Shown here in pieces: positions 25,882 to 48,354 of a DNA stretch of 48,354 nucleotides. Made by a program: the position numbers and the translations under genes. Each line of letters opens with the position of its first letter. The stretch's first letter is position 1. Source of the stretch: a virus; the IMG/VR virus record IMGVR_UViG_3300005585_000472, positions 1 through 48,354 of that record. One strand, given 5' to 3'. The notes beneath the pieces were generated by a model. It saw only the letters and a program-made list of their open reading frames with translations. It was not told the DNA's origin and ran no database searches.

Positions 25882-25911
25882 AAAAAAGAGGGGAGAAATC
25901 CCCTCTTTTTT
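25882..25911. terminator. two-way terminator between nrdA and the minus-strand cassette
   Basis: A perfect 13-base stem (25882-25894 with 25899-25911) with a GAAA tetraloop, flanked by A and T runs on both sides. It can end transcription from nrdA and from the convergent cassette. Confidence 0.9.
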
Positions 25912-26715
25912 TTAGTAATCTGTATCTATGTTTTGTCTATTTACAGTAGTTTTGTAAAATGTTATGTCGTTATTTGAGAATTCTACATCTGGGATTTTTG
26001 TCCATGTAAATCCTCCGCCTCTTTCATAAATAAAAGGGCTTAAATCTATAATGACCAATTCAACTAGATCATTGTTTTCATCATCTTCATCATATAATAT
26101 ATCTGGTTCAATGTTATAAACGATGGTCTCTACGTGCTGTATATCGTCTCTTGTAAATGTTGTTGCAGTATAACTTGGGTAGTTTTTGTTTATAATTTCA
26201 ACAAAAGAATCTGCAATGAGGTGACAAATACCCCCACCAGCATATACATCAGGATTCTCATCCCAATCATCATAAATTTGTTGTGCAGCATCTACAAATT
26301 CCGAAGTAAGCCTTTCTAAACTATTTTCAAAAGAATTGGTAGACGCTATTATTTCTTTAGGTTTATAATACATAGTTCTTGAAAATGTATCTGATAAATC
26401 AAAGTCCTTTTTTCTTCCAGCATTATCTACAAATTCATTTCTTTCATAAAATCTTTGTAGTGCTCCCTTTTTACCTTTTTCAGGTTCAGGGTTAAGAACA
26501 ATTGGCTTGCCCACTCTTTGACTGTATTCTTTAAGGGAAGTAATAATTTCTGTTCCTATACCTATTCCCCTCATTTCTTTAGGAATGAATATTTTATCTA
26601 ATTTGATTTTATTTTCGTATTCATTTATTCTTAAGACAATTTCAGGATACTTATTTAAGAAATAAATTATTAATTCTTTAATACCATTTTGTTCATGAGC
26701 AAATTTATACCACAT
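25912..26715 (-). CDS. MWYK-tagged GNAT acetyltransferase fused to a possible cysteine peptidase-like domain
   Basis: A 267-residue protein with two parts. Residues 1-6 are the MWYKFA peptide shared by its neighbours. Residues 30-120 fit a GNAT acetyltransferase: MRGIGIGTEI at 48-57 is the acetyl-CoA loop and LQRFYERNEF at 86-95 the usual C-terminal motif. Residues 125-267 form a second domain with GGGICHL (Cys164), QHVETIVY (His194) and VIIDLSP (Asp224), an order seen in papain/transglutaminase-like folds; that part is inference. GGAGAA precedes the ATG on the minus strand. It is the last gene of the four-gene unit and overlaps the preceding stop by one base. Confidence 0.6.
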   Translation of the reverse strand: MWYKFAHEQNGIKELIIYFLNKYPEIVLRINEYENKIKLDKIFIPKEMRGIGIGTEIITSLKEYSQRVGKPIVLNPEPEKGKKGALQRFYERNEFVDNAGRKKDFDLSDTFSRTMYYKPKEIIASTNSFENSLERLTSEFVDAAQQIYDDWDENPDVYAGGGICHLIADSFVEIINKNYPSYTATTFTRDDIQHVETIVYNIEPDILYDEDDENNDLVELVIIDLSPFIYERGGGFTWTKIPDVEFSNNDITFYKTTVNRQNIDTDY

Positions 26716-27350
26716 TATAAATTTCTCCAGCGGGATATATCTGAGACATATTTTGGTGGGCCAGTAACCATGAAACTTTTCATATCTTCATTATAATCAT
26801 GGACTCTATCAATATCATAAGCTTTTTCAAATTTGCCCTTATTAGAATTGATTATAAATACTACATCTTGAGGCTGTAACCTATGTATGATTTCAAAAAT
26901 TTTGGCATTTTGCTCATCTGAAGGGGGTGCAAAGGCATTTATTGTCATAGTGCTTCCCATTTTACTAATTCTAATGCCTCTGTCAAAATATTTATGAAGA
27001 ATCTCTGTTACGGCATCTTCTGAATTGTATCTTGGCCCTAATTTCTCTCTTCTTCTTTGTACTAAATCTTCAGGCCCAAATGCATATTCTGGAAGTGCAG
27101 AAATATTATACTTCTCTCTAACTTCAGGATTTTGGCTTACACTGTTTCTTGCGCTTTCTAAGACTCTATCAAGAAACAAACTATGGCTTACTGCTTGATG
27201 TACGTTTTCATCACCAGAAAGAATCAAATGCTCACTTCCTGAACCTGTCCATATATCTGAGACAGGAATAGGTTTAGGAGTTTTTTCTTTTACATGTTGT
27301 TCAAAAACATTATCAGGTACATTTGGTTTTATAGCTAATCTATACCACAT
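26715..27350 (-). CDS. MWYR-tagged hypothetical protein
   Basis: A 211-residue soluble protein beginning MWYRLAIKPN. Apart from that peptide it has no similarity to its neighbours that I can see. The centre (75-135) is charged and helical; the C-terminal part alternates strands and helices. No motif recognised. Its start lies directly after the stop of the upstream cassette gene, with GGATA as a possible ribosome binding site. Confidence 0.55.
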   Translation of the reverse strand: MWYRLAIKPNVPDNVFEQHVKEKTPKPIPVSDIWTGSGSEHLILSGDENVHQAVSHSLFLDRVLESARNSVSQNPEVREKYNISALPEYAFGPEDLVQRRREKLGPRYNSEDAVTEILHKYFDRGIRISKMGSTMTINAFAPPSDEQNAKIFEIIHRLQPQDVVFIINSNKGKFEKAYDIDRVHDYNEDMKSFMVTGPPKYVSDISRWRNL

Positions 27351-27821
27351 TTAAATATCCAACTTACCTTGAGAGTAATCTAATTTATATTCGTGTAAAG
27401 AGCCTTTAATGTCTGGCTCTCCAAGTATTTTTTCTCTTATTCTTTCTGCTGCTGAATTAATTAGATAACTAACTAACCATTCAGGTTTTCCAAAATTCTC
27501 AAAGTTATATTTAAGCCATTTATAAAGATTAGTAGCAACACCCATGCCTTCATACCAATCAGCAGTTCTTACATGCTTAAGTTCAAGTTGATTTCTGCCT
27601 GAAGCGTAAAAACTTACATCAAATTCCATTTTTCCAACTGGCATTTCTCTCTGTCTATCTTCTAAATCATAAGCTTTTAAGACATATGAAATTGATCTCA
27701 CTCTTCGTTCAGAAGGATCTCTGTCACTTTCGTCACTATCTTCAGTTTGCTTCAATTCATAACTTAGATCATTAAAATCATAGTATGCTTTGTGACCTTT
27801 AAGAGCAATTTTGTACCACAT
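27351..27821 (-). CDS. MWYK-tagged GNAT-like acetyltransferase
   Basis: A 156-residue protein beginning MWYKIALKGH. Residues 60-120 resemble a GNAT core: strands, then HVRTADWYEGMGVATNLYKW, where EGMGVA stands in the acetyl-CoA binding loop (R/Q-x-x-G-x-G/A), followed by a helix. The length suits a minimal GNAT. The target is unknown; phage GNATs may modify host proteins or antibiotics-like small molecules. It is the second gene of the leftward unit, two bases after the first. Confidence 0.55.
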   Translation of the reverse strand: MWYKIALKGHKAYYDFNDLSYELKQTEDSDESDRDPSERRVRSISYVLKAYDLEDRQREMPVGKMEFDVSFYASGRNQLELKHVRTADWYEGMGVATNLYKWLKYNFENFGKPEWLVSYLINSAAERIREKILGEPDIKGSLHEYKLDYSQGKLDI

Positions 27822-27822
27822 G

Positions 27823-28308
27823 TTATTTGTCTCTTTTTTCCATAGCTAAAAAGTTAGCTCTTACTTTACTTAAGAACGAGCCAACAGTTGAAGATCTAGC
27901 ATTATTTAAAACTCCAGAGTTCTTAAATGGTGGTATTTCATAATGAAAATCTAATCCATTTATATGATGATCTTTTATGGAATTTATTTGATCTAATGTT
28001 GGAGCTTTCCAAATTTCAACACGCCATTCATTATCTATTCTAGAAACTCTAATTGAATTGGTTTCTTTTAAAAATGGTATTACATAATCCCTAGAATCAT
28101 TAGGAATTTCATTATCTAAATTTTGAACAGGTGGCATTACTTCAAAGATTTGTCCATGAAGAAATCTATCTCCCTGAAATCTGTCATAAAAGTTTAATAA
28201 TTGACCTTCTGGTAACACATAGGCAGCTTTTTCAGGGTCATCAGTTGTGTCAAATCTTTTTAAGGCTTTGTCTATATATTCATTATTTATTGCAAATTTG
28301 TACCACAT
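27823..28308 (-). CDS. MWYK-tagged hypothetical protein, first gene of the leftward cassette
   Basis: A 161-residue protein beginning MWYKFAINNE. The middle is strand-rich and aromatic (VRVEIWKAP-type segments); the C-terminus is a basic helix. No family recognised. It leads the minus-strand unit, so the promoter must lie in the 40-base gap shared with the rightward gene at 28350; TATAAT runs into the ATG on this strand. Confidence 0.55.
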   Translation of the reverse strand: MWYKFAINNEYIDKALKRFDTTDDPEKAAYVLPEGQLLNFYDRFQGDRFLHGQIFEVMPPVQNLDNEIPNDSRDYVIPFLKETNSIRVSRIDNEWRVEIWKAPTLDQINSIKDHHINGLDFHYEIPPFKNSGVLNNARSSTVGSFLSKVRANFLAMEKRDK

Positions 28309-31420: not shown

Positions 31421-31457
31421 AAAGAATTAAAATTGAAATTTGCCCTCAGGAGATTTG

Positions 31458-32141
31458 ATGGCATCTGAAAATCCAAGAATTGTAAGAATAGTAAATAAAG
31501 CAAAAGGAGGCGATGAGGCTTCTTTTAAAAGACTTTTAAAAATGGTAGAGCCTGATCTCAAGAAAATTGCTCCGCATTTTTTTATTGTTGGTGGCGATCG
31601 TGAAGATGTCATGCAAGAATTAAGATTGGGCGTTTATAAAGCTGTTAATTCTTATGACTGTACCAAAGACACAACTTTCAAAAACTTCTGTGTTAATTTA
31701 GTTTGCAAAAGACATCTTGCCACAGCTATAGCTTCGGCAAAAAGAATGAAAAATTCAGCGTTGAATGATTCAATTTCTTTAGATGCACCATTTATTTTAA
31801 ATGATGATGGAAATTTTCATACTTTAGGAGATTATATTCCTGAGAAGAAAAATCCTTATGATGAATCTCCTCCTGTTAATTTACTTGAAGACATTATCGT
31901 CAGAGAAGAATTAGAAATAAACTCATCTTTGTTGCTTGAAAAGCTTACCCCTTTAGAAGCTGACATTTTTGTAGAGTATTGTTTAAGATCCTCTTACAAA
32001 GATATTTCAAACTCACTAAATGTTCCAGCTAAATGTGTTGATAATGCACTCACAAGAATACGCAAAAAAGCCACTGAAGTTTATACGCAATTTAGGACTG
32101 ACGAGAAAGAGGATGCGTCACATAATTTACCAAAAAAGTAA
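31458..32141 (+). CDS. sigma factor, SigH-like
   Basis: A 227-residue sigma-70 family protein. Region 2 reads DREDVMQELRLGVYKAVNSYD and TFKNFCVNLVCKRHLATAI, followed by ALNDSISLDAP, very like sporulation SigH (sigma-30). Region 4 is LTPLEADIFVEYCLRSSYKD with helix-turn-helix VDNALTRIRKKA; the VDNALxR segment is typical of SigH. It should redirect host RNA polymerase to phage promoters. ATG 31458 has CAGGAG six bases upstream; the TTG at 31440 is less likely. It comes 37 bases after dnaX. Confidence 0.85.
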   Translation: MASENPRIVRIVNKAKGGDEASFKRLLKMVEPDLKKIAPHFFIVGGDREDVMQELRLGVYKAVNSYDCTKDTTFKNFCVNLVCKRHLATAIASAKRMKNSALNDSISLDAPFILNDDGNFHTLGDYIPEKKNPYDESPPVNLLEDIIVREELEINSSLLLEKLTPLEADIFVEYCLRSSYKDISNSLNVPAKCVDNALTRIRKKATEVYTQFRTDEKEDASHNLPKK

Positions 32142-32144
32142 TAT

Positions 32145-32762
32145 ATGAGACACATATTGCGCTTGGCTTCATTTTTAGATCAAGTTGGAAAATATAAATT
32201 AGCAGATAAAATAACTAAAATTGCTATCGATCAAAGTGATTTTGAATTACCAAAAAAACCTATTACGTTTTCAGATCACGTATTAGACAGATCAAGGTCT
32301 ACTGGTAAAGATCCGTTGGATGTAATTGATAAAATGACTACAGACAACGTAGCTGAAGCTGATTATAGTTTTTCTGACTATAGAAGATTTTTTGAAATTT
32401 ATTCACAAATTTTCATATTTGCAAAAGATGGTGTTTGGAAATTTTCATTTATAGACCCACTGTCTTTGCAAGGTTTAGCAAAAATGTCAGATAAAGAAGG
32501 CAAATTGCTCACTGACCAACTTTCAGTTCCAGGATTAGAAGAGCTGTATAGTAGTGAAGAAGATCTTGAAAAAATAACATATGATGTTCTTTATTCAACA
32601 AATTTACCGATTGAAGATTACACAGCTGAAGAAGCAGAAGAATATGTTAGAGAAAGATTCCCATATGCTTCAATTGATGTAATGACGGGTGATTATGAAG
32701 TTGACAAGAATGAAAATTTATATGATGCTGAAAGAGACTTACCTGAAAGAGACTTGTCATAA
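32145..32762 (+). CDS. hypothetical protein with an LDxxGxxxxAD N-terminal motif
   Basis: A 205-residue protein. Residues 4-28 (ILRLASFLDQVGKYKLAD and following KITKIA) form an amphipathic helix pair also seen at the start of the gene at 41965. The rest is acidic and mixed helix/strand with no recognised family; the tail repeats PERDL. It lies three bases after the sigma factor gene and is followed by the purA promoter. Confidence 0.55.
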   Translation: MRHILRLASFLDQVGKYKLADKITKIAIDQSDFELPKKPITFSDHVLDRSRSTGKDPLDVIDKMTTDNVAEADYSFSDYRRFFEIYSQIFIFAKDGVWKFSFIDPLSLQGLAKMSDKEGKLLTDQLSVPGLEELYSSEEDLEKITYDVLYSTNLPIEDYTAEEAEEYVRERFPYASIDVMTGDYEVDKNENLYDAERDLPERDLS

Positions 32763-32794: not shown

Positions 32795-32800
32795 TTGCAT

Positions 32801-33796
32801 ATGGAAACTTCAATTGTTGATGTAGTTATCGGTATGCAGTATGGTGATGAAGGCAAAGGTAAAATTGCCTATCAATTAGTAATTACTGGTGAATATGACT
32901 ATGTATTCCGATTCAATGGAGGCGGAAATGCAGGTCATACAATTTACCTCAATGGAGAGAAAATTGTTACACATCTTGTTCCTTGCGGTATTCTGCATGG
33001 TATTCCTAGTATCATCGGTAATGGTTGTGTTATCAATACGCAAAAATTATTTGACGAACTTGAATATCTTAAAGGATTTGGGTTTGACACATCAATCCTT
33101 AAAATAGCAGAAAACGCACATATAATTACCCAAGATCACATTGACGAAGATTCCAAAGATACAAAGATTGGAACAACTCGCACTGGAAATGGACCTTGTT
33201 ATCGAGACAAGTTTGCCCGTACAGGTCTTCGTGCCAAAGATGTTCCAGAATTAGCACCATATCTTGTTGATATGCACAGTATTATTCATTCTTCCCCAAA
33301 TAAATTTTTAGCTGAAGGAGCTCAAGGATATTGGCTTGATGTTGATTTTGGTGATTATCCTTTTGTTACCTCATCAAATACAGGTGTAGGAGCAGTATTA
33401 AACAATGGTTTCAATTATAAGCAAGTACGGAATGTTGTCGGGGTTATCAAGTGTTATTCTACCTATGTTGGAGCTAAAGGATACCAAAAAGATGACGATC
33501 GATTTGAACAGCTCAGAGAAATTGGTCAAGAATACGGAGCTACAACAGGACGACCAAGACAAATAGACTGGCTCAACATCCAAGAAGTGATTACTGCTTG
33601 CCAAATGAATGGTGTTACAAAGCTTATTATCAACAAAATGGATGTTCTTCGACAAGTGACTAGTGCTTGGAATTATTATGAAAATGGAATGTTGATATCT
33701 TGTTCTGATGAAGATACATTCATTTCTAATATCTTGAAAGAAATAAAGATTTGTCTTACTAATACTGAAGTTGAATTCCAAGGACAACTACATTGA
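32801..33796 (+). CDS. adenylosuccinate synthetase family enzyme (PurA/PurZ)
   Basis: A 331-residue enzyme that would join aspartate to a purine nucleotide using GTP. Key motifs are GMQYGDEGKGK at 11-21 with the catalytic-base Asp16, NAGHT with His46, IGTTRTGNGP at 123-132, AEGAQGYWLDVDFG at 171-184, EYGATTGRPRQ, and the guanine-binding NKMD at 278-281. It is about 100 residues shorter than bacterial PurA, like archaeal PurA and phage PurZ. PurZ, which makes the precursor of 2-aminoadenine, is reported to lack the Asp that is kept here, so the substrate is open. The start is ATG 32801; a TTG at 32795 is the alternative. The end overlaps the clamp gene (TTGA). Confidence 0.88.
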   Translation: METSIVDVVIGMQYGDEGKGKIAYQLVITGEYDYVFRFNGGGNAGHTIYLNGEKIVTHLVPCGILHGIPSIIGNGCVINTQKLFDELEYLKGFGFDTSILKIAENAHIITQDHIDEDSKDTKIGTTRTGNGPCYRDKFARTGLRAKDVPELAPYLVDMHSIIHSSPNKFLAEGAQGYWLDVDFGDYPFVTSSNTGVGAVLNNGFNYKQVRNVVGVIKCYSTYVGAKGYQKDDDRFEQLREIGQEYGATTGRPRQIDWLNIQEVITACQMNGVTKLIINKMDVLRQVTSAWNYYENGMLISCSDEDTFISNILKEIKICLTNTEVEFQGQLH

Positions 33797-38048: not shown

Positions 38049-38809
38049 TGTTTTTTAGCTTTGACAATGATGAACTGAGCGATTATTTAGAAATGCTTTA
38101 TGAAGAAACATCATATGGTACTTCAGATTACGACAGACAAGATCTAAATCCTTTATATTGGGACATTTTATTAAAACCAATATCATCAAATCCAGAATAT
38201 TGGAATGACAAAAAAGCTTTAGATTTTGGTACTTCAAGAGGTAGAAATCTAAAAAATATTGACAATTTGGCAAAATGGAAAGAGCTGCATGGAGTTGATC
38301 TAAGTAAGAAAAATATTGATGAAAATATCAAAAATTTTCAAGATACTAAATATCATTTTCATAAAACCTCAGGCAGAAATCTTAAGAAATTTAATGATGA
38401 ATCTTTTGACTTTGTAATATCTACTTTAGTATTTCAACATATTCCAATTTATGATTTCAGACTTTCATTACTTAAAGAAATTTATAGAGTAATGAAGAAG
38501 GATGGAGTTTTTACTTTTCAAATGGGTTTTGGTGATAATCTTAAAGATAGAGGTTATCCTAATCATTGGTTTGTTAGAATGAAAAGTCAAGTAGGTATAT
38601 TTCCAAGCCAACTTCCAATGGCCGGATACTATGACAATATTTACAAGGCATCAGGCTCTCATGGGGAGCATGATGTTAGAGTGACAGATCCAAATCAAAT
38701 ATTTGGAGATTTGTCTAATATTGGATTTAAAAAGATAGATTGTTCAATTGAAAATGCTTACGATGAATATATGCATAAATATTGGATATATGTTACTTGT
38801 TATAAATAA
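38048..38809 (+). CDS. class I SAM-dependent methyltransferase
   Basis: A 253-residue methyltransferase. Motif I is KALDFGTSRGRN near 56-67, the ribose-binding acid follows in LHGVDLSK, and DESFDFVISTLVFQHIP is motif IV; LKEIYRVMKKDGVFTF is motif V/VI. There is no DPPY/NPPF motif, so DNA base methylation is less likely than a small molecule, protein or RNA target. It overlaps the genes before and after it by one base, so it is cotranslated with the terminase pair. Confidence 0.78.
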   Translation: MFFSFDNDELSDYLEMLYEETSYGTSDYDRQDLNPLYWDILLKPISSNPEYWNDKKALDFGTSRGRNLKNIDNLAKWKELHGVDLSKKNIDENIKNFQDTKYHFHKTSGRNLKKFNDESFDFVISTLVFQHIPIYDFRLSLLKEIYRVMKKDGVFTFQMGFGDNLKDRGYPNHWFVRMKSQVGIFPSQLPMAGYYDNIYKASGSHGEHDVRVTDPNQIFGDLSNIGFKKIDCSIENAYDEYMHKYWIYVTCYK

Positions 38810-40932
38810 TGAGAAAAATAAATACTGCAAAGCAAAATCATATTGACTATAAAACACAGCTTTTGCAGCAAGCAAATGATATTACAGAACTTTTCAAAGA
38901 CACAGAATATGCTGCTGACTTTGAGGATGAAATACGCCCTCAAACTAGAACTGAAGTATCACCTCCTGTTACTCCTGAAAAAACAAGATTTAACCCTGAT
39001 CAAATTGTAGATATTGTTACTTTTATTGAGCATCCTTTTTTCTGCAATTTAAAACCCCACCCATGGCAAAGACTTATATTGAAATGTTTTTATATGGGAC
39101 AAGAAGGCAATACAAATATTATATTTAATGATGTTCCAGTTGAAGAAAGAACTTCTTGTAAAGGATGTGTCTGGGAACATATTAGTAAAAATGAAATAGA
39201 TGTAATGAAAAAAAGAAAAGAAGGCAAATTTATCAAGCCTCTTTTTACAGTTGAAAATTCACCTTGCTTAACATGCAATAAGCTTCCAGAAAATGTAAGA
39301 CAAGAAAGATATGATGTAGCAAAAGAAGAAGCTACAAACCCTGATTCCGAAAGAATCATTTTAGAATTGTCCCAAAGACCAATTATTGAAAATTACCAAT
39401 CAGAAAGAGATTTATTTTTTGCAGAAGAGCTTGATCCAAAAGTAAGAAAACAAATCTTAGATAAATGCGAAAAAAGATTTAAATTTCAAGAATTAGTCTT
39501 GGTACTTGGTAGACGTTCAGGTAAATCATTCCTTGTTTCAGCTATTGCTCTATATGAACTTTATAGATTGATAGCGATGGGGCATCCTCAATCTAGATAT
39601 GGATTGATGGAGTTTGATCAAATTACTCTTCTTAATGTTGCTAAAAATGAAGAACAGGCTAAAAATGCCATCTTCGCAAAAATAAAAAATACTGTTTTGT
39701 CATCTCCATTTTTTCAACCATATATTGGTAAAGACAATGAACTGGAGATGCGCTTTTATACTGAGAATGACAGAAAAGAAAATGACAGAAGAATAAATCA
39801 AGGAATGAATCCTTTTTCGGGTTCCTTAGTACTAAAATGTGGTTCTAGTAGCGCTTCAGGTCTTGTTGGTTTAACTTGTTGGTGCATCATTATGGACGAA
39901 ATTGCTGCTATGGCTGGTGATAGTCCTGATTCTGGTGTTGACTATGCTTTATATAATGATTTAAAGCCATCTTTAGCCACATTTGGTAGAGATGGAAAGA
40001 TTATGATGCTCTCCAACCCTAAAGGACCAATAGGATTACTTTATGATTTACATGAGAATAGACTAGAAGATCCCTCTACTCTGATAATGAGAATGCCAAC
40101 CTGGCTTTCAAATCCTAATATTGATAAAGAATATCTTGAGGGAGAAAAAAAGAAAAATCCAGTTGAGTACCAGATGCAGTATGGAGCTGAGTTTGGAGCT
40201 GCATCCTCAGACCCAATGTTTTCTCCTGATGACATACAAAGAATGTTTAGTTCTATGTCAATGATTCCTAGAAAAGAAAAATCTGATGGTTTGCATGAAT
40301 ACTATTGCCATCTAGATCCTGCAAGAACATCTGATTATTACGCTTTAGTAATTACCCATGCGGAAAGTATATATAACACAGTTGGTCCAGATTTTAAACC
40401 TCTGAAACGTGTTGTAATAGATCATATTCATTTTTGGAATCCGATATCAAAAAATCAACCTATTTCTGAAAGAGAAGTTGAAGAATATGTTATAAGCCTG
40501 CATGCAAAATTTAGATTTAGGCAAGTTAGTATTGATCAGTGGAATTCTCAAACTTCTTTAATCAAACTTCAAGGTCGTGGAATTCCTATTGTTGAAAGAC
40601 AATTCAATAAAGAATATAAAGAAAAAATTTATTCAGAATTAGCCCAGCTTATTAGAGAAGACAGAATAGACGTTTATGATTTATCTTCTGGATTTTACGA
40701 AGATGCTTCTGGTAAGAAAATAGATCTTAATGAGGTTCAAGAAGCCAAAATTCAATTTCAGTATCTTCAAAAAATTTGGAAAGGTAAAAGATTCTTTATC
40801 CAAGCTCTTAAAGGATATAAAGATGACATTTGTGATGCTGTTGCTGCAGCTTCATATGAGTGCACTGTTTCAAAAATTGTATCAAAACTTCCAAGTTCAA
40901 AGTTAGTGAATTTAGGTGGAAGGTTTAGATAA
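38809..40932 (+). CDS. terL: terminase large subunit
   Basis: A 707-residue packaging motor and nuclease. Walker A GRRSGKS is at 234-240, Walker B CIIMDE with Asp363/Glu364, and LSNPKGP as the coupling motif. The nuclease domain begins with CHLDPARTSDYY (Asp503), has a SIDQWNSQ motif, and ends with YKDDICDAVAAA, the third metal-binding acid. An insert between about 110 and 160 has CxxC at 117-120 and CLTC at 153-156, a possible zinc ribbon ahead of the motor. This is longer than many TerL proteins. It identifies the genome as a tailed phage. Confidence 0.92.
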   Translation: MRKINTAKQNHIDYKTQLLQQANDITELFKDTEYAADFEDEIRPQTRTEVSPPVTPEKTRFNPDQIVDIVTFIEHPFFCNLKPHPWQRLILKCFYMGQEGNTNIIFNDVPVEERTSCKGCVWEHISKNEIDVMKKRKEGKFIKPLFTVENSPCLTCNKLPENVRQERYDVAKEEATNPDSERIILELSQRPIIENYQSERDLFFAEELDPKVRKQILDKCEKRFKFQELVLVLGRRSGKSFLVSAIALYELYRLIAMGHPQSRYGLMEFDQITLLNVAKNEEQAKNAIFAKIKNTVLSSPFFQPYIGKDNELEMRFYTENDRKENDRRINQGMNPFSGSLVLKCGSSSASGLVGLTCWCIIMDEIAAMAGDSPDSGVDYALYNDLKPSLATFGRDGKIMMLSNPKGPIGLLYDLHENRLEDPSTLIMRMPTWLSNPNIDKEYLEGEKKKNPVEYQMQYGAEFGAASSDPMFSPDDIQRMFSSMSMIPRKEKSDGLHEYYCHLDPARTSDYYALVITHAESIYNTVGPDFKPLKRVVIDHIHFWNPISKNQPISEREVEEYVISLHAKFRFRQVSIDQWNSQTSLIKLQGRGIPIVERQFNKEYKEKIYSELAQLIREDRIDVYDLSSGFYEDASGKKIDLNEVQEAKIQFQYLQKIWKGKRFFIQALKGYKDDICDAVAAASYECTVSKIVSKLPSSKLVNLGGRFR

Positions 40933-40954: not shown

Positions 40955-41965
40955 ATGTCTAAGAATTTAAAAACAGCTTCTGGATTTGGCGGCGTTGGAG
41001 GTGGCTATCAACCTTCAGCGTATTCGCCTGGAAATACTCCTTTTGGAATAAGCGGCAAAAATAGGGGTGGAAGTGGAATCAATCCATATATAAATGAAGA
41101 AGATTCTTTTACTCAGCTCTTAGAAAAAATGCGTCAAGGTGATGATCAATCAGATTTATCAATAGAAGCAAAATTACTTAAATTTCATAAAAATAATATT
41201 GAGTCGGACACCATTCCTTATCTCTTAGATGACCCAGTTGCTAGAAGAAGAGCAAAATTAAGAAGACAGATTAATGATTATAAACTTGGTTTAGAACAAG
41301 AAGCAGATAGTATATTTAAAAACACTGCGGCTTATATCAATAAAAATACAAAAAACGATCCTGATCATTTCAGAACTATTGAAGAAAGTTTAGAAGCTTC
41401 AAAAAAACATAAATATAAACCATTTCAAAAATTTGAATTTGAAGATGATATTCCTGAGCAGATAAAGCCTGAAAGATATCATTATTCAAGCAAAAATAAT
41501 TTAAGAATCTCTGAAGGCCCTAGTCAAAGAGGAAGAATTACCAGAGATCATCCTGAAGATGCAGCAAATGGCAATAGAAATGTTTATGATGAAAAAAGAT
41601 TTAATACTTTTCCAGAAGCTAGTTATCCACTACTCGCAGGTGAAGATGGCTTTCCTGGACTTAATAATTACTTAAATAAAGCTCAAGAATCAAACCAAGA
41701 CCATAGAGGCACTTCTGGTTATAGCGAGCCTGTTGGCTATGACGGTGTTCCTAGTGACACAAAAGCAAATGTTAATCCAAGATCTGAAATGTCTAACACT
41801 CCTTTATTATTAGATGTAAATGAGCCTTTAGAAACTAATTTAAACGGTAAAAATAATAGAAAAACAATACAAGAAATTAACAATCAATCTTTCAATGAAC
41901 AAAATTCAGGTTTAGAAAAACAATACAATACATTTGGTATTGGAATTCATGGAAATAGCTTCTAA
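40955..41965 (+). CDS. late hypothetical protein, Gly/Asn-rich
   Basis: A 336-residue polar protein. The start is Gly-rich (GFGGVGGGYQPSAYSPG), the middle is charged and helical, and the second half is Asn/Glu/Ser-rich with little hydrophobic core, so much of it may be disordered. No family recognised. It follows TerL by 22 bases, where phages often keep portal or head-assembly genes, but it does not look like a portal protein. Confidence 0.5.
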   Translation: MSKNLKTASGFGGVGGGYQPSAYSPGNTPFGISGKNRGGSGINPYINEEDSFTQLLEKMRQGDDQSDLSIEAKLLKFHKNNIESDTIPYLLDDPVARRRAKLRRQINDYKLGLEQEADSIFKNTAAYINKNTKNDPDHFRTIEESLEASKKHKYKPFQKFEFEDDIPEQIKPERYHYSSKNNLRISEGPSQRGRITRDHPEDAANGNRNVYDEKRFNTFPEASYPLLAGEDGFPGLNNYLNKAQESNQDHRGTSGYSEPVGYDGVPSDTKANVNPRSEMSNTPLLLDVNEPLETNLNGKNNRKTIQEINNQSFNEQNSGLEKQYNTFGIGIHGNSF

Positions 41966-42423
41966 TGAGACCAAATATTAATTCGTTAATCAAAATTTGT
42001 AATATTTTGGACAAAATTGGGGAATTCAAAAAATCTGACAACTTGTTCTTGAAAATTTCATACTATTATCCTGATCAAAGTGATTACACAGGTGAAAGAA
42101 AAGTTGATTATGCAGATATAGAACAAGAATTACAAAGTGATGATAAATTTAGACAAACTGATAAGCCGAACAAAGTAAAAAAAGAATACTTTCCTCTTCC
42201 TGGTAATACAGATGAAGAAAAGGCACAAAGCATTTTTTCTATAAATAACAAAGATGATGCAGTGCCTGGTCCTGCAGCTGTTGATCCAGTATCAGCTGCT
42301 AGTAGCCCATCTCAGGGATTAGCTTATGGAGATGCCTCATTAGATGATTACACATACGAAGCCACTAACGAACAAAATGTTCAAGATGGAAATACTTGGA
42401 AAAATAGATTACCAAACAGATAA
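41965..42423 (+). CDS. late hypothetical protein with LDxxGxxxxAD-like start
   Basis: A 152-residue protein. Residues 7-33 (SLIKICNILDKIGEFKKSDN and following) match the N-terminal helix pattern of the gene at 32145; Ser replaces Ala in the AD position. The rest is polar, with Asp/Pro/Ala-rich low-complexity sequence, probably disordered. The start overlaps the previous stop by one base. Function unknown. Confidence 0.5.
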   Translation: MRPNINSLIKICNILDKIGEFKKSDNLFLKISYYYPDQSDYTGERKVDYADIEQELQSDDKFRQTDKPNKVKKEYFPLPGNTDEEKAQSIFSINNKDDAVPGPAAVDPVSAASSPSQGLAYGDASLDDYTYEATNEQNVQDGNTWKNRLPNR

Positions 42424-43007: not shown

Positions 43008-43313
43008 TTGATGAATGCAAAACCTTTGGACAAAAAAGAAGTAGCTTTCTTTATATTTGATACACCAGATAATTATTGTTTTTGGAATAAAAATGTTGAC
43101 TTTGATTTATCTTTAGCATTTTTAGATAAAGATTACAAAATATTAGAAATTAAGGATATGGAAGCTCAAAGTGAAAAATCATGTTGCCCAAAATCAAACA
43201 ATGTAAAGTTTGTTGTAGAAGCAAATAAGGGAACATTTGATGATTTAGGTATAAAAATTGGTAATAGCTTTGTTTTGAAGGATCAAATTTTAATTTTAGA
43301 TAAAACAATATAA
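43008..43313 (+). CDS. DUF192-family protein, true N-terminus unclear
   Basis: The visible ORF from TTG 43008 has 101 residues. FIFDTPDNYCFWNKNVDFDLSL followed by AFLDKDYKILEI and IKIGNSFVL fits the DUF192 pattern (FWMKNT...LDIIFID...GIKxGD). The family's RxxGLM motif lies across the nominal start: in frame upstream one reads IAKNDSSRSKGLMN. The domain therefore begins at about 42945, yet no ATG, GTG or TTG precedes it in frame back to the TGA of the gene before. A rare start (CTG 42924, ATT 42966), read-through or a sequence error would explain it. Its role in phage is unknown. Confidence 0.62.
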   Translation: MMNAKPLDKKEVAFFIFDTPDNYCFWNKNVDFDLSLAFLDKDYKILEIKDMEAQSEKSCCPKSNNVKFVVEANKGTFDDLGIKIGNSFVLKDQILILDKTI

Positions 43314-43391: not shown

Positions 43392-44357
43392 ATGGCAGAT
43401 AGAATTTTCCCTAACAGAATTCAAGAAGAGGCTCTTGATTCTGACCTTGTATTTCAAGGGATTGATTGGGACAACTTTAATGAAAGACTAGCCAAAGCCA
43501 AAGAGCCTAAGAAAATGGATGATGAAACCAAAGAAATGCTCAAAGGTCTAAGCGACAAAAAGAAACCATCAGAAGAAGATAGAAAAAAACTTGATGATGT
43601 TCCACCACAATTTCTTGATAATGTCAAGAAAAATAAGAAAATGCACGAAGATGATGAAACTGAAGAAGAAGAATCAGACGAGCATGATCACGAAGACAAT
43701 GAAGACGATGAAGATGATGAGAAAGATGGTAAAGGCCCAATGAAGAGAAAAGGCCCTAAATCTAAAGATGAAAAGAAGAAATCTTATGCATTCAATCATC
43801 CATCACAAATCAGTGCAGAAGCTATTGAAACAGCTTTAGCAAATGGTGATCAAGAACTTGCTAACGTCATTCTTGCAGTCAGACATGAGAGAAGAGTTAG
43901 ATTGGCTGAGAAAATTGAAAGACAAATCGTAGCTCAAAATACTCAAAATGTTAAATTGGCTCAAAGAAAAGCTTATAGACAAAATATCGTCAATAGCTTA
44001 CCAGTAGGAACTTCAAAGAAAGAAGTTGCCAATTCTGATGAGTTTGTAAAGGTTTCTTCAATGAATAATTCAGCTAGAAAAGCTTTTGCAGCAAAAGCTA
44101 TCGAAAATGGTTTTCCAGCTGAGTATGTTCAAGCAATGTTAGGCGAGACGGTAAAGGTTGATAAGTTATCTGACATCAAGAAAGTTATGGCTTCTGAGTT
44201 AGAGCCTAATGTAAAAGTTGCAGCAATCAAATCAATGACAAAAGTTGCTACACTTACAAATGACGACTATAAGAGACTCAAAGACTACTGGAAGAATGAG
44301 CTCGGATATGCTGAAGCATGGGTAGATGAACTCTTTACCCAAGAATACGATAAGTAA
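43392..44357 (+). CDS. late protein with Asp/Glu-rich centre
   Basis: A 321-residue protein starting at ATG 43392 after TTGAGGAG. Residues about 75-135 are an extreme acidic tract of Asp/Glu with Lys/Pro, likely disordered. The C-terminal 185 residues are helical and Ala/Lys-rich. It might be a scaffold or internal head protein, judging from composition and place; no family match. Confidence 0.52.
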   Translation: MADRIFPNRIQEEALDSDLVFQGIDWDNFNERLAKAKEPKKMDDETKEMLKGLSDKKKPSEEDRKKLDDVPPQFLDNVKKNKKMHEDDETEEEESDEHDHEDNEDDEDDEKDGKGPMKRKGPKSKDEKKKSYAFNHPSQISAEAIETALANGDQELANVILAVRHERRVRLAEKIERQIVAQNTQNVKLAQRKAYRQNIVNSLPVGTSKKEVANSDEFVKVSSMNNSARKAFAAKAIENGFPAEYVQAMLGETVKVDKLSDIKKVMASELEPNVKVAAIKSMTKVATLTNDDYKRLKDYWKNELGYAEAWVDELFTQEYDK

Positions 44358-46222: not shown

Positions 46223-46237
46223 ATGGAAGGATATAAA

Positions 46238-47788
46238 ATGACAGAAAAATCAAAAAAGAGTAAAATGCACTCACCTTCCTTAAACGGCGTAAGTATCACG
46301 AGAATATTTGAAGATATCATTGAAGAATTACAACAAAATAAAGGAAGATTTAATCCTAAAGAGATGCTTTCTTATGTTGATGAAGATAATTTATGTGATG
46401 ACGGCGTAACTCAAGAGTTTAGAAAAGATGGCGGACCTGAAGAAGTGATTCATATAATATCACTCCCAGGCAATATGGCTTTTCCTACCTTAGCTTCTAG
46501 ATTGCGTAAATATAAAACAATTTTGGCATCTGATCTAAGAAATAATTATAGATTCTCCTATATGGCTCTTCAAAACTTTTTGGATAAAAATAACGATGCT
46601 GCAAAACTTGAGAGAGTTGCGTCAAAAAATGATGATAAGTCTGCTGGTTATTGGCAAATTAAGTCTTTAGAATCTTTAGACAAATTATCTAGCCTTGTAG
46701 ATAATATTGAAAGAATTACTATAGCAAATCTTAGATCTAATATTCTTTCAGGTGACAGAAAAGAGCTTTTATACGCTAAAGATTATGTAAAAGCATGCTA
46801 TGAAGCCCTTACCCCTAAAGAAACTAGAAGGCTTGCTTATACCTCATTATCAACACAAGATAATGAACCTTACCTCATGTGTCCTAAAGGTAAATATGTA
46901 TTTGGAAAGCCAGTTGCTATGGAAGTTTCTAAATGTAGATTTAACTGCATTGATTCAAGAGTAGCTGAAGATGGTTCAGTCACTTGCGCTTATCAAGATT
47001 GGCTTAAAGTGGCATTCATTTCTCATGATGAAACATTTGCTAGACTTGATGTTCATAGAAGTTCAGACAATGACACGAACATCAACTTGAGCGAAGGACA
47101 AAGATCCAAAGATGTTACAGATGCAGATAACACATACGAGATGATGTTTGATAAAAGCACTCAAGGCGCAAATTCCATGAGAGATAAATCAAACTATGAC
47201 GATAGTATTCAATCACAACTTTCTTCAATGAAACCTTCTCAATACGGGCATACTGAAGAAAAGAAATCTAAGAATACAAAAACTTCTCAAACAGATCACA
47301 ATAAAGTAATTGATCAGCAATTACCAAGAACAAACAGTACTTCAGTTCTTACATTAGAAGAATTGTTGAGAAATATTAACAATACTGAATCTGACACTGA
47401 TACCGTAACAGAAGAATTATTACAAAACGCTGACATGATGGGGCACAGAGGAGAAATGGAAGTTTCTTACGCACATCAATTAGCAGATAATGATTCAGAT
47501 TATAAGCATATTAGCAGCGAAATAAATGATAAAGCTGAAGATGGTGATGATATGACTGTATCCCAACATCTTAATAAAACTGCTAAAAAAGTAGAAAAAG
47601 ACTTATCATTCGATTCACATCTTGAAGATAGCAGAACTAATTCTGAGTCTGATCTTGATAAAACTATCGAGCAATTACTTTCAGACACAGATGAAGATTC
47701 TTGGGGACATCAATTCTCAGAAGAAGATTTAAAACATTTTGCATCTGAATTAGGATTAGATAGTTTATTAGAAGAATCTAGAGAATAA
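46238..47788 (+). CDS. late hypothetical protein with Cys cluster and acidic tail
   Basis: A 516-residue protein. I start it at ATG 46238 because GGAAGG lies just upstream; the ATG at 46223 has no site. Residues 1-230 look folded. Residues about 220-255 carry a CP-x-GKY and later C-x3-C and a fourth Cys, a possible zinc site. From about 270 to the end the sequence is Ser/Asp/Asn-rich, low in hydrophobics and probably disordered, with repeated short LxxLL-type segments (SLDKTIEQLL, EDLKHFASEL). No portal motif is seen. Confidence 0.52.
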   Translation: MTEKSKKSKMHSPSLNGVSITRIFEDIIEELQQNKGRFNPKEMLSYVDEDNLCDDGVTQEFRKDGGPEEVIHIISLPGNMAFPTLASRLRKYKTILASDLRNNYRFSYMALQNFLDKNNDAAKLERVASKNDDKSAGYWQIKSLESLDKLSSLVDNIERITIANLRSNILSGDRKELLYAKDYVKACYEALTPKETRRLAYTSLSTQDNEPYLMCPKGKYVFGKPVAMEVSKCRFNCIDSRVAEDGSVTCAYQDWLKVAFISHDETFARLDVHRSSDNDTNINLSEGQRSKDVTDADNTYEMMFDKSTQGANSMRDKSNYDDSIQSQLSSMKPSQYGHTEEKKSKNTKTSQTDHNKVIDQQLPRTNSTSVLTLEELLRNINNTESDTDTVTEELLQNADMMGHRGEMEVSYAHQLADNDSDYKHISSEINDKAEDGDDMTVSQHLNKTAKKVEKDLSFDSHLEDSRTNSESDLDKTIEQLLSDTDEDSWGHQFSEEDLKHFASELGLDSLLEESRE

Positions 47789-47789
47789 C

Positions 47790-48164
47790 ATGTGGTACAG
47801 AGTCGTAAAGGCTTCATTTGGTGTCGCTGATAAGAATGAAGAATCTAGCAGCGATACCACTGTAGCCGTTTTGTCCCCAGAAAATATAAATATTCTAAAC
47901 CCTGGAAGAATTTCAATAGTCAACACAAACATTGATGATGAAGTAATTGAAACTGCAAAGCCTATTGAATTATCTCCAGAAAATCTTACTACTGAACAGC
48001 AACTCAGAATGAACTTTCCAGATAATGAAAGCTCATTAAAAAATACTTTAAATCCCAAAGATGCTGATATAAGCATGTTTAATGGCGAAGGATATTATTT
48101 AGCTCTCAGGAACAAGGGAATATTCACGGACAAAAGTGCTCCATCATCACAAAGTTGGGTATAA
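47790..48164 (+). CDS. MWYR-tagged late hypothetical protein
   Basis: A 124-residue protein beginning MWYRVVKASFG, the same MWY[K/R] start as the four minus-strand cassette proteins, but located among late genes. The rest is polar and strand-poor with a Pro/Asn-rich centre. Function unknown; the shared start suggests a common sorting or packaging signal. Confidence 0.55.
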   Translation: MWYRVVKASFGVADKNEESSSDTTVAVLSPENINILNPGRISIVNTNIDDEVIETAKPIELSPENLTTEQQLRMNFPDNESSLKNTLNPKDADISMFNGEGYYLALRNKGIFTDKSAPSSQSWV

Positions 48165-48172
48165 TTTAAGTT

Positions 48173-48354
48173 ATGGCAAATAGAACATCTTTGGCAGCTG
48201 CTATAAGATCCTCAGCAACACAAGTTGCTAGCGATACATCATCTGCAGGTACAAAATCTGAACAAAGATACGCTAGTAGTAGAATTGGATTAGGCTTGGG
48301 ACCTTCTGTATCAAGAACTTCAAGCATGAACACAATTACCACTGCGCCGAACTT
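48173..48354 (+). CDS. late protein, 3' end outside window
   Basis: An ORF opens with ATG at 48173 and is still open at the end of the window (60 codons). The visible part begins MANRTSLAAAIRSSATQVA and is Ser/Thr/Ala-rich. It starts nine bases after the previous gene and probably continues the late operon. Nothing more can be said from this fragment. Confidence 0.5.
   Translation, partial: MANRTSLAAAIRSSATQVASDTSSAGTKSEQRYASSRIGLGLGPSVSRTSSMNTITTAPN

Follow-up and report, generated by a model that had tools for sequence, protein, structure and literature searches.

An N-terminal MWY[KR]xA peptide on unrelated proteins of a jumbo-phage clade as a candidate capsid-targeting tag

Five proteins encoded by a 48,354-nt stretch of viral DNA (IMGVR_UViG_3300005585_000472; the whole stretch is hereafter called the window) start with the peptide MWY[KR], which is well supported as a genuine, selected, modular and swappable N-terminal tag. 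The peptide, in the form MWY[KR]x(x)(x)A, is probably a capsid-targeting signal analogous to the capsid targeting sequence (CTS) of bacteriophage T4, which the head protease would probably trim. The first-pass annotation of this DNA had proposed a sorting tag, and the modular tag itself stands; a link to the phage head has circumstantial support from a tagged protein encoded directly before the portal gene, from a motif at the end of the tag which is enriched in head proteins and from the similar anatomy of a different tag in Bacillus phage G.

Results

Tagged proteins in the window

Four adjacent minus-strand genes, flanked by plus-strand nucleotide-metabolism genes, encode the proteins P1 to P4 (Table 1), with the four starts that the first-pass annotation had listed (MWYKFA, MWYRLA, MWYKIA and MWYKFA). 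The fifth start that it had placed at 47790 was also present, as MWYRVVKA, with Ala at position 8 and not at 6; the form common to the five proteins is MWY[KR]x(x)(x)A. The pattern ATGTGGTAYARR has five sites only in the 48,354-nt window, which are these five starts, and a reversed control pattern had 0 matches in the same sequence. MWY[KR] starts were thus found in 5 of the 57 window proteins (0.003 expected), and internal WY[KR] in none (0.8 expected).

The bodies behind the peptide had been described as completely different, and in pairwise BLASTP the common part was indeed residues 1-6 (to 9) only. The best body-to-body pair was P1 with P3 (E = 0.028), both GNAT-like, and this weak similarity, with nothing more, speaks for the duplication of whole genes to which the match might have been due; the tagged bodies gave no alignment.

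The GNAT domain of P1 matched Pfam Acetyltransf_7 at 2.9e-4, under the curated cut-off, and its top PDB match in Foldseek was the anti-CRISPR acetyltransferase AcrVA5 (1.1e-4). The second domain has a conserved GGIC..IA and is possibly papain-like, as judged by eye. Because residues 1-9 of P1 had pLDDT values below 50 in an AlphaFold2 model, the tag is predicted to be flexible. P2 and P4 had no match in Pfam or PHROG; the family of P4 carries the tag in other clade members too. By eye, no common hydrophobic core of a Sec/Tat or lipoprotein signal peptide follows MWYKxA, the bodies diverging at once. The hairpin at the end of the cassette is a probable terminator common to the tagged genes and the converging RNR gene.

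Elsewhere in the window, a homolog of adenylosuccinate synthetase (32795-33796) scored far under the curated cut-offs for PurA and PurZ and is a possible relative of the 2-aminoadenine pathway. A SigH-like sigma factor (31440-32141; best 1.4e-30) was under the equivalog cut-off and passed that of sigma70-ECF.

Table 1 Features of the window, with positions, strand and the match or count on which each row draws
Feature	Position	Strand	Remark
Hairpin and T-run between RNR gene and converging tagged cassette	25883..25914	.	
P1, 267 aa, tag + GNAT acetyltransferase domain + second domain	25912..26715	-	
Tag MWYKFA of P1	26698..26715	-	
P2, 211 aa	26715..27350	-	
Tag MWYRLA of P2	27333..27350	-	
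P3, 156 aa, weakly GNAT-like	27351..27821	-	Acetyltransf_CG E = 0.084
Tag MWYKIA of P3	27804..27821	-	
P4, 161 aa, family xYGxTxDPxKAGYVLxxGKxLDxSEG	27823..28308	-	
Tag MWYKFA of P4	28291..28308	-	
Helical module LRLASFLDQVGKYKLADKITKIA, 205-aa protein	32145..32225	+	module HMM
Terminase large subunit (TerL)	38809..40932	+	phrog_2 6.8e-28
Helical module IKICNILDKIGEFKKSDNLFLKIS, head-region protein	41965..42060	+	module HMM
Acidic head-region protein, ortholog of G005 125597	43392..44357	+	[KR]hA 5 vs 1.3 shuffled
Head-region protein	46223..47788	+	[KR]hA 5 vs 0.95 shuffled, p 0.0005
P5, 124 aa, pre-portal protein	47790..48164	+	synteny with G005 130051
Tag MWYRVVKA of P5	47790..47813	+	
Portal gene, 5' part, cut off at window end	48173..48352	+	start resembles G005 130575 (by eye)

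Enrichment of the tag in related phages

The window belongs to a clade of jumbo phages with genomes larger than 300 kb, and its TerL has 184 relatives in viral contigs, up to a contig of 315,852 bp (G005). The first-pass annotation had allowed that related genomes might show no enrichment of the motif; among the relatives it is strongly enriched. M(x)WY[KR] starts were found in 11 of the 331 proteins of G005 (0.018 expected), internal WY[KR] being near chance there (8, with 5.2 expected), and each large genome has 8-10 tagged proteins where about 0.01 would be expected. A 17-base pattern for the tag had 29 matches in 30 TerL relatives and 41 in 12 further records, its reversed control 0 in both sets; the 12 were picked partly for having the motif, and only the comparison with the control is valid there.

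In an unbiased N-terminal scan, based on three-residue words within positions 2-8, MWY..A ranked first in G005 (8 proteins, 0.010 expected, p 1.9e-21); in G034 the top word was MWYR (10 proteins, p 3.6e-29). With T4 as a check, the known CTS came out top. Chance, or whole-gene duplication, as the source of the common start has a practically negligible probability, set against p values of about 1e-21 to 1e-29 and 0 control matches against 29 and 41 real ones. In Tunturi_5 the scan detected no tag, and in LR745208 its best candidate was weak; the phenomenon is therefore lineage-restricted. One peptide of LR745208, MxTLRSKLxRLAH (L371-L390, four proteins), appeared to be one family and was not counted as a tag; it is possibly that phage's own N-terminal module.

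Bacterial genome contigs had 8 matches to a stricter DNA pattern, MWYK[FILM]AQ with K as AAA, none of which was a convincing gene with the tag start; the peptides from six were no longer than 23 aa, the other two lay inside longer open frames, and a bacterial origin was rejected. MWY alone was also rejected as a signature, since a generic scan for ATGTGGTAY with an upstream Shine-Dalgarno sequence matched mostly unrelated starts (such as tail-like MWYREGT..) and MWY alone is therefore not diagnostic. What marks the jumbo clade is MWY[KR]xA on many bodies within one genome.

Selection on the peptide and range of tagged proteins

The codons of the tag vary among the window copies (TAT/TAC, AAA/AGA, TTT/TTA/ATT, GCT/GCA). 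With one representative per tagged cluster, Tyr was encoded by TAT in 31 cases and by TAC in 30, and Ala by GCT in 26, GCA in 25, GCG in 6 and GCC in 4. Since the Tyr and Ala codons vary freely, selection is on the peptide, and a DNA-level element was ruled out by this synonymous variation. The position exactly at the start codon would suit an element of expression, such as a translation start context, an mRNA structure or an N-degron-type stability signal, but besides the free codons, the sequence upstream of the start codon differs from family to family, an unrelated tag of the same anatomy occurs in phage G and a 29-residue helical module can replace the peptide (both described below); such an element is very improbable. 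Still more improbable is a cassette for recombination or gene capture, in which the common start would be exchange homology with no protein function. The variable site of the tagged genes, four in the window and one in G005, would fit such a cassette, but DNA identity extends over only about 15 bp, with synonymous drift, and yet many families retain the same residues.

The 110 distinct tagged proteins fell into about 65 k-mer clusters, of which some small ones are chance or non-jumbo. They span 74-914 aa, mostly with one or two domains, among them GNAT, ART-PolyVal (2.9e-12), NUDIX, NUDIX with HAD_SAK_2, PcfJ, DnaJ, NlpC/P60 and Peptidase_M23; most of the tagged families have no assigned function. 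ART-PolyVal, PcfJ and the AcrVA5-like GNAT are, by domain similarity, the domains of injected effectors. Among relatives of P1, the tag precedes a lone GNAT domain in L169 and L218 and a lone second domain in L214 and L227; L204 and L138, like the window, have it on the fusion of both.

The pre-portal protein and the head genes

The window stops within the portal gene, and the gene at 47790-48164, encoding P5, is therefore the pre-portal gene; the G005 counterpart of the truncated gene (130575) is a portal by PHROG and Pfam (phrog_16240, 2e-35). About 30 orthologs of the pre-portal protein were found, and nearly all of the approximately 20 listed have an MWY[KR] start. The head module of G005 begins with TerL, several proteins without function by annotation, the pre-portal protein and the portal, and continues with a 1405-aa protein, the acidic protein 137421 and the small protein 139052. 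The 1405-aa protein has a head-maturation protease domain (phrog_18299, 3e-16), which on reading of the sequence appears to be HK97-type. In the relative G001, the gene after the equivalent of 139052 encodes a 284-aa putative major capsid protein, similar in size and start to gp27 of phage G; by eye, no obvious tag or propeptide was seen on it.

Several other features were observed. A DUF192 protein (2e-16) is encoded amid the head genes of the window (43008-43313). The C-terminus of the portal protein is a DUF559/MTES_1575 restriction-endonuclease-like domain (L308:10575-12917, 5e-8; L223:19339-21699, 3e-9), which is unusual on a portal. A RuBisCO large-chain-like protein (L309:2397-3572, corresponding to G005 142397; Pfam 6e-33) is encoded on a phage contig amid sugar-metabolism genes, its nearest NCBIfam model being type III RuBisCO, under the cut-off. 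A protein of 900-940 aa, encoded near the head module in G005, starts with a variant of the tag, MWNYKRSKRIVEA or MWYSRIIES..AWDVLS (L307:15344-18160, G034 61590 and homologs in G018 and G014); the G005 copy had no Pfam match.

The [KR]hA motif

Many tags end in [KR]hA, where h is a hydrophobic residue. As a calibration, the T4 cleavage motif [LI]xE was counted in gp22 (16 forward, 6 reversed, 5.7 expected); it was also enriched in gp21 and not in gp20 or gp19. Counted in the same way, [KR]hA had 17-20 occurrences in the protease-scaffold protein from each of five phages, with 1-4 for the reversed motif and about 5.5 expected; the five are relatives, so that these counts are not independent. 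It occurred 9 times in G005 137421 (1.4 expected) and 7 times in G005 125597 (0 reversed, 1.7 expected), and two head-region proteins of the window were similar (Table 1); two replication proteins had no excess. Over six clade records the motif was concentrated in the first 10 residues of the proteins, with a frequency there of 7.75 per 1000, compared with 2.7 for the reversed motif.

Among 45 MWY proteins of six genomes, Ala was at position 6 in 26 and at positions 7-9 in 11, and 8 had no suitable Ala; a strict rule of cleavage after A6 was rejected, as some members do not obey it. The tag of the pre-portal protein mostly lacks [KR]hA, its Ala being placed later. Cleavage may therefore not be universal, and it is the weakest link of the capsid-targeting account; the enrichment of [KR]hA could instead reflect docking or helix preferences.

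Exchange with a helical module

In the AQDMSVP.. protein family, three contigs have an MWYR[FLK] start and others a 29-residue N-terminal module predicted to be helical, MYxxxLLxxAxKLDxxxxYKLADKxxRx. The body is conserved across the swap, as is the upstream DNA in the contigs for which it was inspected, and both modules join the body at the same point, with [KR]hA directly before QDMSVP. An HMM of the module, of the general form LxxAxxLDxxGxYxxADxh...[KR]h[AS], matched 95 otherwise diverse N-termini, 89 of which have [KR]h[AS] near the module end, including two in the window (Table 1) and others in L354, L356, L357, L360, L277 and further contigs. An AlphaFold2 model of one such protein, in which the module scored poorly (pLDDT about 35), gives weak support to two helices. 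The module is taken to be a longer, interchangeable version of the MWY tag. Some bodies behind it are Glyco_hydro_108.

The tag could also be purely a processing site of the head protease or a trigger of maturation, with no targeting information, and both the end of the two interchangeable modules in [KR]hA ahead of the same residue and the enrichment of this motif in head proteins accord with that. We consider it improbable, because M-W-Y is kept at the extreme N-terminus, which is more than a [KR]hA site requires, and several MWY proteins lack the site.

A different tag in Bacillus phage G

The nearest isolate by portal is Bacillus phage G (29.6 % identity, E 6e-59). In its genome (JN638751) MKRL is the commonest N-terminal word, found on at least 11-13 proteins where about 0.2 would be expected, while internal KRL is not in excess (36, with 41 expected); the tag has the form MKRL(x)KK[AS] on at least 11 unrelated proteins (L343-L353). 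Carriers include gp13, encoded directly upstream of the portal gp14; gp38, starting MKRLIKKASV; gp53, starting MKRLVKAEQQ, which is PARP/ART-like (PARP E 2.5e-4, under the cut-off); gp251 and gp610, ART-like by an HGT[SD] motif seen by eye; gp284 (ParB_N); gp346 (ferritin-like); and gp334, which resembles nucleoside deoxyribosyltransferases and has been listed in the ARC superfamily (PMC7824862). The head proteins of phage G contain [KR]hA 26 times (2 reversed, 9.1 expected).

Phage G thus resembles the clade in that its tagged proteins include the one encoded before the portal as well as ART-like and other enzymes, and differs in the peptide, MKRLxKK[AS] being unrelated to MWY[KR]xA. The two tags may have evolved separately or may have diverged past recognition. 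That two unlike peptides occur in one and the same arrangement points to function rather than descent. The MKRLxKK[AS] N-termini were not found in the open-access literature searched.

The short, aromatic and basic peptide at a flexible N-terminus might also dock the tagged proteins to a partner outside the virion, such as the replisome, a phage compartment, the membrane or a host protein, with the pre-portal protein sharing that partner for another reason. This would suit the tagged genes outside the late region and enzymes that could act anywhere, but the single carrier that can be assigned a place in the structure belongs to the head region, a placement that recurs in phage G with a different peptide, and the end motif of the tag is specifically enriched in head protease and scaffold proteins. 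Docking outside the virion is, on these grounds, unlikely.

Discussion

If the peptide is a capsid-targeting signal, its first 6-9 residues would be a flexible handle, recognised at prohead assembly by one partner inside the head, for which the core under assembly (scaffold/protease or portal vertex) is the most plausible candidate. Unrelated tagged proteins would be packaged alongside the DNA and injected into the next host. Trimming after Ala by the HK97-type head protease is probable in many carriers because many copies end in [KR]hA, which is enriched in the phages' own protease and scaffold proteins, and the 29-residue helical module would substitute for the tag. We infer the receptor, packaging, cleavage and injection, as well as a role for the cargo in countering defences or taking over the host.

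In T4, an N-terminal peptide sends proteins into the head for packaging and injection (PMC3012670, PMC5694885), and propeptides of 10-20 N-terminal residues are cut off by gp21 (PMC5694885). Like the MWY tag, the CTS of T4 (IPI-III, Alt) is a short N-terminal peptide common to otherwise diverse proteins. The CTS terminates in the cleavage motif of the T4 protease, as the MWY tag may do for its own protease in the many carriers with [KR]hA. Inhibitors of host defence and an ADP-ribosyltransferase (Alt) carry the CTS, and the MWY carriers (ART-PolyVal, AcrVA5-like GNAT, NUDIX, PcfJ) resemble these by domain similarity only. The sequences (MKTYQEFIAE, or MKTYQEF[I/T]xE, in T4 and MWYKxA here) have no resemblance, the MWY tag is shorter (6-9 residues), the putative cleavage motif is [KR]hA instead of [LI]xE and the protease domain is HK97-like, whereas that of T4 is gp21. 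Unlike the CTS, the MWY tag is found on the pre-portal protein and on far more families and is exchangeable with a helical module.

The N-terminal regions of the ejection proteins of phiKZ and SPN3US are thought to target the prohead and are removed by the head protease (PMC5694885). These propeptides are mostly longer than 100 residues, are cut after xxE and have no short peptide common to unrelated accessory enzymes, whereas the common part of the MWY tag is 6-9 residues with no xxE.

The GNAT domain of P1 matches polyvalent DarB-like and PLxRFG proteins and phrog_10691, and polyvalent proteins also have ART-PolyVal, as does a tagged protein here. A polyvalent protein is, however, one giant polypeptide, whereas here the domains are on small separate proteins, each with its own tag. 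In the staphylococcal phage 80alpha and in ribosomal protein L27, a short N-terminal extension is cut off by the prohead-type protease Prp; this extension differs from the MWY tag in its sequence, its few known substrates and its lack of a known cargo function.

An N-terminal capsid-targeting peptide is already known as a kind of signal. The open-access literature searched described neither the MWY peptide nor the wide range of proteins that carry it, the helical module that can replace it or the similar tag of phage G; a search for MWYK found nothing relevant, in agreement with the first-pass annotation, to which no earlier description of such a tag was known.

Several jumbo lineages may use a general code for cargo loading, each with its own short address (MWY[KR]xA, MKRLxKK[AS] and perhaps others) besides the interchangeable helical module. 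The head core close to the portal would read these, so that mobile effector genes would yield packaged proteins by acquiring the local address; we put this forward tentatively, as a real possibility. If it is true, the tag would list the injected arsenal of a giant phage from sequence alone. A readable address would give lists of candidate injected proteins from metagenomes, likely to be early anti-defence enzymes. The tag would also be a small portable label with which proteins could be loaded into very large capsids, and the idea is directly testable in cultured Bacillus phage G.
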